Shown here: piece by piece, positions 247 to 46,882 of the stretch | How the letters are laid out: each line of letters opens with the position of its first letter | How positions within the stretch are numbered: the stretch's first letter is position 1 | NCBI GenBank assembly: GCA_902779705.1 | Contig: CACZCR010000002.1 | Coordinates: forward strand, 1 to 64,000 | Source of the DNA: an uncultured Bacteroidales bacterium | Lineage (GTDB): Bacteria > Bacteroidota > Bacteroidia > Bacteroidales > Paludibacteraceae | Reading direction: 5' to 3' | Length of the DNA: 64,000 nucleotides | Notes under the pieces: model-generated | Seen by the model: the letters and a program-made list of their open reading frames with translations, nothing else | Told to the model about the DNA's origin: nothing | Database searches by the model: none | Made by a program: the position numbers and the translations under genes

Positions 247-300
247 CTGCCAATATGTCCATCCTTCGTGCCAAATTGTCCACCCTCTGCCATTTTGTCC
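247..300 (-). promoter_or_regulatory. three TGNCA-N3-TGNC operator-like sites upstream of hsp20
   Basis: Plus-strand copies are CTGCCAATATGTCC (247-260), GTGCCAAATTGTCC (267-280) and CTGCCATTTTGTCC (287-300), spaced exactly 20 bases or about two helical turns. TGNCA is its own reverse complement, so each site is an imperfect inverted repeat with a 3-base centre. The proximal site overlaps the -33 position expected for the weak -7-like CAAAttAT at 221-228. A 13-base core, GACAAAATGGCAG on the minus strand, is shared with the site before clpB at 46868-46880. A stress-regulator binding site is inferred. Confidence 0.55.
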
Positions 301-44695: not shown

Positions 44696-46804
44696 TTAAT
44701 TGCGGAACGCCAATTCGCCGTTCTTGAGTTCAACTACCACAGGTTTGGTCTGATCAACTTTACCAGCAATGATCGACTTGGACAGCTCGTTGAGTACCAG
44801 TCGTTGCAAAGCTCGTTTGACGGGGCGTGCACCAAACTGCGGGTCGTAGCCTTCGCGGGCGATATAGTCGATTGCATCGTCTGTGACGCGCAGGTCTATA
44901 CCGTTGTGCATCAGCATCTTGTGTACACCTTCTATCTGCAGCCCCACGATCGAACGAATCTCGCTTTCGCTAAGCGGCTCAAAGAGGATGGTCTCGTCGA
45001 TACGGTTCAAGAACTCCGGACGGATGGTCTGATGCAGAAGTCCCAACACCTGTTGACGCGTGGTCTCGCGGTCGACATGCTTCTCCTCGTTCTCGCGGAT
45101 GAGTTGTGAACCCAGGTTAGAGGTGAGGATGATGAGTGTGTTCTTGAAGTTGACCGTACGTCCTTTGTTGTCGGTCAGACGGCCGTCGTCAAGCACTTGG
45201 AGCAGCACGTTGAATACATCGGGGTGTGCTTTCTCGATCTCGTCAAAGAGCACTACCGAATAGGGTTTGCGTCGGATAGCTTCGGTCAGTTGACCGCCCT
45301 CGTCATAACCTACGTATCCCGGAGGCGCACCGATCAATCGGGTGGCCGAGAACTTCTCTTGATACTCAGACATGTCGATTCGTGTCATCATGTTCTCGTC
45401 GTCGAAGAGGTAGTCGGCCAAGGCTTTGGCCAGTTCGGTCTTGCCCACACCGGTCGTACCGAGGAATATGAACGATCCGATGGGTCGTTTAGGGTCTTGC
45501 AATCCTGCCCGCGAACGGCGGATAGCGTCTGAGACAGCTTTGATAGCAGCGTCTTGACCAACGACACGTTTGTGGAGTTCTTCTTCCAGGTGCAGCAGTT
45601 TATCGCGCTCTGACTGCATCATCTTGGTCACAGGTATACCGGTCCAACGGGCTACTATCTCAGCTATATCGTCTTCGTCTACCTCCTCCTTGATAAGGCT
45701 GTCGGAGCTGATAGTATGGAGAGCATCTTGTGCAGCTTTGATGTTGGCTTCGGCCTGCTGCAACCGGCTGTAGCGTATCTCGGCCACTTTGCCATAGTCG
45801 CCTTCGCGCTCAGCCACCTCTGCCTCGTGCTTCATTTGCTCGATACGCGCTTTCTCGTTTTGGATAGTAGCCACATAGCCTTTCTCTTGATTCCAACGTG
45901 CGTTGAGTTCGTCGGACTGCTTTTTGAGTTCAGTCAGTTGTTTCTCAATCTCGCCAAGCTTAGCCTCGTCCCGGTCGCGCTTGATGGCTTCGCGTTCGAT
46001 CTCCAATTGCTTGATCTGGCGGTCGAGTGTATCGATCTCCTCAGGTTTGGAGTCCACTTCCAGACGCAGTTTGGCAGCCGCCTCATCGATGAGGTCAATC
46101 GCCTTATCTGGCAGGAAACGATCGGTTATATAGCGGTTGGAGAGTGTGACGGCCGCGATGATAGCGTCGTCTTTGATACGCACTTTGTGGTGGGTCTCAT
46201 AACGCTCTTTTAGTCCACGCAGGATAGAGATCGTAGCCGCCTCATCGGGTTCGTCTACCATAACGATCTGGAAGCGGCGTTCGAGTGCCTTATCGGACTC
46301 GAAATACTTCTGATACTCGTCCAGTGTAGTAGCACCGATAGCTCGCAACTCACCACGCGCCAAAGCGGGTTTGAGGATGTTAGCAGCATCCATCGCTCCG
46401 CTGGTCTTGCCGGCACCTACGAGGGTGTGTATCTCGTCGATAAAGAGGATGATCTCGCCTGCAGCTTCGACCACTTCGTTGATCACGCCTTTGAGTCGTT
46501 CCTCAAACTCGCCTTGGTACTTAGCACCGGCGATCAAGGCGCCCATGTCAAGCGAATAGATCTTCTTTTGTTTGAGGTTCTCGGGTACGTCACCACGAAC
46601 GATACGATGTGCCAGTCCTTCGGCTATAGCGGTCTTACCGACACCGGGTTCACCGATGAGGATCGGGTTGTTTTTGGTTCGACGGCTCAGTATCTGCAGC
46701 ACGCGACGAATCTCGTCGTCGCGCCCGATGACAGGGTCCAGTTTGCCTTGTGAGGCTCGTTCGCACAGATTGATGGCGAATTTAGATAAGTTTTCAGTCT
46801 TCAT
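44696..46804 (-). CDS. clpB: ClpB-type disaggregase lacking the N-terminal domain
   Basis: At 702 residues against about 860 for typical ClpB. It begins [22 protein letters not shown], exactly at the linker before the first ATPase domain, so only the two Clp-N repeats are missing. Both AAA+ modules are intact ([52 protein letters not shown]), as is the coiled-coil middle domain (about 255-375) that contacts DnaK. Only 82 bases separate it from the upstream gene, so no room exists for a lost N domain. E. coli makes a similar short form by internal initiation; here it is the only form encoded. A heat-shock-like site lies at 46864-46882. Confidence 0.93.
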
Positions 46805-46863
46805 AGCGGTTTGTATTTTAGTGTTTGCCCCCTATAGTGCAAACTCTATACCAAGCCGCCAAC

Positions 46864-46882
46864 GACTGACAAAATGGCAGTC
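46864..46882 (-). promoter_or_regulatory. TGNCA-N3-TGNCA site upstream of clpB
   Basis: Plus strand GACTGACAAAATGGCAGTC is a 5-base inverted repeat (GACTG/CAGTC) around TGACA-AAA-TGGCA. It holds the 13-base GACAAAATGGCAG also found before hsp20. It overlaps a candidate -33 TTTG (minus strand, 46870-46873). A weak -7 (TA-GAG-TTTG, 46840-46848) follows with slightly long spacing. Confidence 0.55.

Follow-up and report, generated by a model that had tools for sequence, protein, structure and literature searches.

The sigma-54 form of RNA polymerase needs an activator, a bacterial enhancer-binding protein (EBP). Among the described EBPs, PspF, the enterobacterial phage-shock activator, consists of an AAA+ domain and a Fis-type helix-turn-helix (HTH), has no N-terminal sensor and serves a stress regulon, and NorR, which senses nitric oxide, acts from a three-site enhancer placed further upstream. 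In Flavobacterium psychrophilum, sigma-54 boxes stand at the mapped start sites of groESL, lon, dnaK, grpE-dnaJ, htpG and clpB; the accessible part of that report distinguishes separate co-expression clusters without settling which activators act, and its table places an EBP-LptE operon (tags 0733-0732) near groES (0729) (PMC9723704). Across the Bacteroidota, sigma-54 promoters are enriched before the GroEL, GroES, IbpA, GrpE, DnaJ, DnaK and HSP90 genes, according to the accessible text of another study (PMC12316311). In the portions accessible, one report describes Porphyromonas gingivalis as having no CIRCE element (PMC3646045), and another a fall of rpoN in the Chlamydia heat-shock response (PMC8762339). 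In the open-access literature, as far as its texts are accessible, no enhancer or activator was found named for the chaperone sigma-54 promoters of the Bacteroidota.

The window analysed here covers 64 kb from the start of contig C2 in the host genome (G000; 1.82 Mb in 16 contigs), and both of the promoters that concern us read on its minus strand. The 5′ end of hsp20 occupies positions 1 to 99, with the ATG at about 97-99, and runs off the contig end; the remainder lies at G000:C6:2-277, where Pfam detects the alpha-crystallin/HSP20 domain. Because hsp20 is split across both contigs, C2 and C6 probably adjoin (window position 1 to G000:C6:1). The hsp20 leader contains short GTTTGACGTTGTTTGATGTC-type repeats at 121-170, and a similar run is found in the relative G001. 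Upstream of the leader, a sigma-54 promoter of the -24/-12 type (TTGGCACATAATTTGC, 220-235) has the exact GG-N10-GC geometry and the full box score of 21.5 of 21.5, and relatives have the same type of box. Three predicted activator sites lie further upstream, a proximal one (GGACATATTGGCA, 248-260) at a gap of 12 to the TTGG, a middle one (GGACAATTTGGCA, 269-281) at a gap of 33 and a distal one (GGACAAAATGGCA, 288-300) at a gap of 52. These are the three TGCCA-N3-TGTCC sites that the initial annotation had noticed, and they stand at exactly those places; the exact 20-base period that it gave them does not hold, the real spacing being 21 and 19 bp. On the minus strand they read as the GGACA variant, GGACA-N3-TGGCA, the proximal one counting as a one-mismatch site at gap 12, and the three-site array recurs in the genomes G001, G002 and G015.

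The second promoter serves clpB (44696-46804), which encodes 702 amino acids and has no N-terminal domain. Its sigma-54 box (TTGGTATAGAGTTTGC, 46839-46854) has the same GG-N10-GC geometry and a score of 19.5 of 21.5, and its predicted activator site (TGCCATTTTGTCA, 46867-46879), found in relatives too, again ends 12 bp from the TTGG. The motif reported before clpB is thus present, as TGACAAAATGGCA at 46867-46879, and the 13-base core said to be common to this site and the distal hsp20 site is real as well (GACAAAATGGCAG, the distal hsp20 site reading GGACAAAATGGCAG on the minus strand). As to the clpB gene itself, the best ClpB match begins at profile position 133-152 in each of the genus's 16 genomes, as it does in G023, unlike in several order-level relatives, where it begins at position 1. 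The earlier reading had fitted both genes to the usual Bacteroides promoter, with weak -7 boxes and with sites overlapping the -33 box. The -7 boxes are weak because the hsp20 and clpB promoters are of the -24/-12 type; since both boxes have the GG-N10-GC geometry of sigma-54 promoters, whose type is TGGCAC-N5-TTGC, the -33/-7 frame does not apply. Instead of overlapping a -33 box, the sites are set upstream of sigma-54 promoters, at distances in phase with the helix, and therefore they look like enhancer (activator) sites.

The motif by itself carries no such signal. Bare TGNCA-N3-TGNCA was not enriched in the window (1 match against 1.42 expected) or genome-wide (37 places against 42 for the reversed control), so that the genome scan once proposed for finding the regulon works at chance level, and counting bare motifs was rejected for this purpose. 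Such counts are what would be expected if the two promoters resembled each other by chance, a reading to which we give almost no credence, as the motif joined to a box occurs almost exclusively at chaperone genes throughout the class, and which is refuted for this composite. Within the window, hsp20 and clpB are the only places where a box scoring at least 17 stands at gap 11-12 from a site of no more than one mismatch, and the same composite occurred 0 times in 30 Markov-shuffled windows. Genome-wide, four of the 37 exact host sites, those before htpG, clpB, grpE and groES, have a box (score at least 17) at gap 12; including hsp20, five chaperone units of the host (hsp20, clpB, groESL, htpG and grpE) have a site exactly 12 bp upstream of a sigma-54 promoter. 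Four more exact sites have a box at gaps of 23, 73, 99 and 102 and are regarded as chance pairs. The motif had been predicted before groESL, htpG and dnaK: it is present at the first two in the host, where grpE has it as well, and it precedes dnaK in relatives, dnaK itself not having been found in a search of the host assembly.

The promoter regions of hsp20, clpB, groES, dnaK and htpG were then compared over the host and 25 relatives (26 genomes), 114 regions in total. The host's own split hsp20 was left out (19 of the 20 rows of the hsp20 table used, L049 dropped), and the other regions came from 24 of 30 ClpB loci (ClpC-like ones dropped), 25 of 28 Cpn10 loci (weak matches L141-L143 dropped), 23 of 30 DnaK loci (MreB-like, other and partial ones dropped) and 23 of 24 HtpG loci (partial L167 dropped). 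The sigma-54 gene rpoN (PF04552) is present in 25 of the 26 genomes, the host copy lying at G000:C1:258498-258971. A box scoring at least 17 was found in 103 of the 114 regions. Among these boxed regions, 68 also contain an exact site at a gap of 8-110, compared with 0, 1, 0, 0 and 0 for five rearranged control patterns. With one mismatch allowed, 88 of the 103 have a site, in phase in 86; conversely, 35 boxed promoters are without an exact site and 15 without any site within one mismatch. Most genomes compared have the site before htpG.

The distances between site and box follow the turn of the helix. Over the 26 genomes the exact gaps fall at 10-13 (36 cases), 20-23 (15), 32-33 (7), 43-44 (4) and 52-53 (3), with a few longer ones, and, with the box picked independently of the site, the period that fits best is 10.55 bp (R 0.895, n=70 exact gaps). 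The gaps of at least 15 bp alone give an R of 0.88 (n=34), a value that none of 2000 uniform nulls attained; relatedness makes the genomes non-independent, and 32 distinct gene-gap pairs still give an R of 0.85. At the groES promoters of 25 genomes outside the order, 16 of the 25 have a box scoring at least 17, and the exact gaps are 12, 32-33, 42, 52-53, 61-64, 73-74 and 94. A site ending 12 bp before the TTGG is centred at about -46. The phased distances argue for a direct contact between a site-bound protein and the polymerase.

Over the 119 places listed from the scan described below, the site has the consensus (C)TGMCA-WWW-TGKCA(G), an imperfect dyad. Position 3 is A (.53), C (.34) or T (.13) and in 0 of 119 places G, and position 11 is T (.65) or G (.33), together 0.98; therefore the site is a dyad, and a direct-repeat reading was rejected. 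In other phyla a dyad preceding the chaperone genes is the pattern of CIRCE, and on this likeness the sites could be operators of HrcA or of a CIRCE-like repressor, which we consider very improbable. HrcA was found in 0 of the 26 genomes, and its absence excludes it as the reader of the site; among 14 named genomes searched as a control, 7 do have it. The best match to CIRCE (TTAGCACTC-N9-GAGTGCTAA) has at least 6 mismatches of 18 in 106 of 108 regions and 3 and 5 in the other two, and sites reaching 70-odd bp upstream in helical register also speak against such operators. The initial annotation had been right to keep the motif apart from CIRCE.

To what extent the composite marks chaperone genes was seen in blind scans. 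The pattern CAAANNNNRTGCCAA-N11/12-TGNCANNNTGNCA, scanned over contigs of 84,980 bacterial and archaeal species, gave at least 119 places, and among the 119 listed, 7 are without a readable ORF and 109 of the 112 readable downstream genes are proteostasis genes. The first downstream ORFs encode DnaK (41), HtpG (31), GroES/GroEL (22), GrpE (8), Hsp20 (4), ClpB (2) and Lon (1), where DnaK, HtpG, GroES/EL and ClpB were assigned through signature strings and the remaining ORFs by eye, with one each of GrpE, Hsp20, Lon, ferritin and SMODS confirmed by Pfam. The three other ORFs encode a ferritin, a SMODS nucleotidyltransferase and a RecD-like helicase. Taxa, given for 80 of the 119 listed places, are mostly Bacteroidota (Bacteroidales, Flavobacteriaceae and Saprospiraceae), with exceptions that include a Marinimicrobia clpB and the helicase match, in a 'Clostridia' genome. 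In a sample of 198 genomes of the phylum, scanned with a looser box, 25 places were found in 22 genomes against 1 reversed-control place; these genomes are 21 of the 49 inside the class and 1 of the 149 outside it. The 22 places examined by eye (20 plus two of the host; those in G050, G093 and G167 lie outside this set) all precede GrpE, DnaK, HtpG, GroES or Hsp20. Thus the motif together with its box marks chaperone genes in the host and across the class, and the shared heat-shock regulon first supposed from two promoters is strongly supported.

Some single places from these scans are of interest by themselves. The ferritin gene behind a composite promoter belongs to Candidatus Phocaeicola gallistercoris (L244), and the SMODS (CD-NTase-type) nucleotidyltransferase (L314) is possibly an anti-phage gene under heat-shock control. 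Outside the class, the composite precedes an hsp20-like gene at G055:C1:2611018 (L428), hinting that the system reaches beyond the Bacteroidia.

As for the protein that would read the site, the host has two true EBPs. The first, at G000:C1:145691-146863, is a protein of 391 amino acids with an AAA+ domain from about residue 15, a Fis-type HTH at 351-389 and no sensor domain; Pfam recognises PF00158 (Sigma54_activat, 227.5 bits) and HTH_8 (57.1 bits), and the closest solved chains are NtrC-family proteins, FleQ and ZraR. None of the NCBIfam equivalog cut-offs was reached among the matches listed, and identity with PspF was rejected on TIGR02974 (253.1 bits against a cut-off of 443.55). The other EBP (L182 1078-2235, G000:C2 at about 151 kb) has a receiver and an AAA+ domain and ends without an HTH or other DNA-binding domain, and therefore only the 391-residue EBP can bind a site. 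A family model built from this candidate gives 553-682 bits for the family and less than 300 for other EBPs. The family is found in 24 of the 26 genomes; no copy was found in the assemblies of G010 and G012, which both have sites, and these absences are likely due to missing contigs (the G010 assembly reaches 68% completeness, and that of G012 also gave no groES or dnaK). All 49 class genomes have it at 545 bits or more, and the best score outside the class is at most 495. Because every class genome has the EBP, its co-occurrence with the motif within the class is uninformative.

Of 36 class-level loci, 25 have the EBP gene together with groES-groEL, 32 have it with lptE and 32 with secG, and in 5 of 10 order-level relatives it is no more than about 4 kb away from groES. 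The recognition helix ERTLYRK is kept in 59 of 60 family members. The loop described in the accessible literature as an invariant GAFTGA in EBPs is GAYTDA in the host; all 60 members have G[AS][FY]T-x-A, 21 of them exactly GAFTGA and 26 GSFTGA. Moreover, a site lies within 200 bp upstream of the family gene in 8 of 61 cases, where 0.075 would be expected; among other EBPs the count is 0 of 25 (L197 duplicates L200 and was dropped, and a short region belonging to another EBP went uncounted). All eight are Bacteroidales genes, four of them near relatives by site and position, and seven are without a box, the eighth having one at a gap of 21; this pattern suggests that the EBP may regulate its own gene. 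The host EBP gene has no site in the 200 bp upstream.

The regulon and its sigma-54 promoters could be as described here and the site nevertheless be occupied by another protein, for example the OmpR-type response regulator RprY acting as a repressor or co-activator. In vitro, RprY of P. gingivalis binds the promoters of groES, clpB and dnaK, apparently repressing them, and the accessible part of the report on this gives no published binding site for it (PMC3646045). The report finds no binding to htpG, as far as its text is accessible (PMC3646045), yet htpG has the site in most genomes here. A dyad of 5-3-5 form in phase with a sigma-54 box fits an EBP, the host's sole HTH-bearing EBP is a member of the groES-linked family, and the site stands before that family's own gene in the 8 of 61 cases given above. 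Thus we regard occupation of the site by another protein as unlikely.

Based on these findings, we propose that the motif is very probably the upstream activating sequence (UAS) of a sigma-54 heat-shock regulon, read most likely by the conserved groES-linked EBP. First, RNA polymerase with sigma-54 would wait in a closed complex at the TTGGCAY-N4-TTTGN box of hsp20, clpB, groESL, htpG, grpE and dnaK. The EBP would bind the same helix face at the dyad CTGMCA-N3-TGKCAG, whose centre lies near -46 or at least one turn further up, and could then open the polymerase complex through ATP hydrolysis; the three sites of hsp20 could seat three dimers, that is, a hexamer. Heat or misfolded protein would switch the EBP on, perhaps, as a guess, when a chaperone or some other inhibitor lets go of it. 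As the EBP has no sensor domain, its control is probably exerted through a partner or through the protein level. Elsewhere, the feedback role by chaperones belongs to sigma-32 or HrcA. A bolder and tentative extension, which we hold with somewhat less than even confidence, is that the Bacteroidia, perhaps the whole phylum, could run their main heat-shock response through one dedicated sensor-less sigma-54 activator on promoter-proximal phased dyads, held off by the chaperones that it induces. The Bacteroidota are a dominant phylum of gut and sea whose heat-shock genes have so far been without a named regulator, HrcA being absent from the genomes searched here and the accessible sigma-54 papers assigning no activator, and this work supplies one site and a one-gene activator candidate for their control, as well as a natural case of enhancer sites as near as about -46 whose distance obeys the helix.

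In conclusion, the system resembles several known ones in part. Like PspF, the candidate EBP consists of an AAA+ domain and a Fis-type HTH without an N-terminal sensor; unlike PspF, it is predicted to serve cytosolic chaperones, and its gene lies with lptE, secG and groESL. As with NorR, three dimer sites stand before one promoter at hsp20, whereas NorR responds to nitric oxide from sites further upstream than those of hsp20. Sigma-54 control of chaperone genes is not new; the apparent novelty lies in the candidate activator, in the phased enhancer dyad and in the class-wide specificity of this dyad for chaperone genes. The predicted sigma-54 regulon of the Bacteroidota, as far as its published text is accessible, gives no UAS and no EBP serving it, unlike here (PMC12316311). 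A further counterpart is F. psychrophilum, whose SM4 (sigma-54) promoters precede groESL, lon, dnaK, grpE-dnaJ, htpG and clpB and whose EBP-LptE operon lies close to groES; the accessible part of that report is without an enhancer site, whereas the present work gives (i) the site, (ii) its phasing and (iii) one candidate activator, class-wide (PMC9723704).
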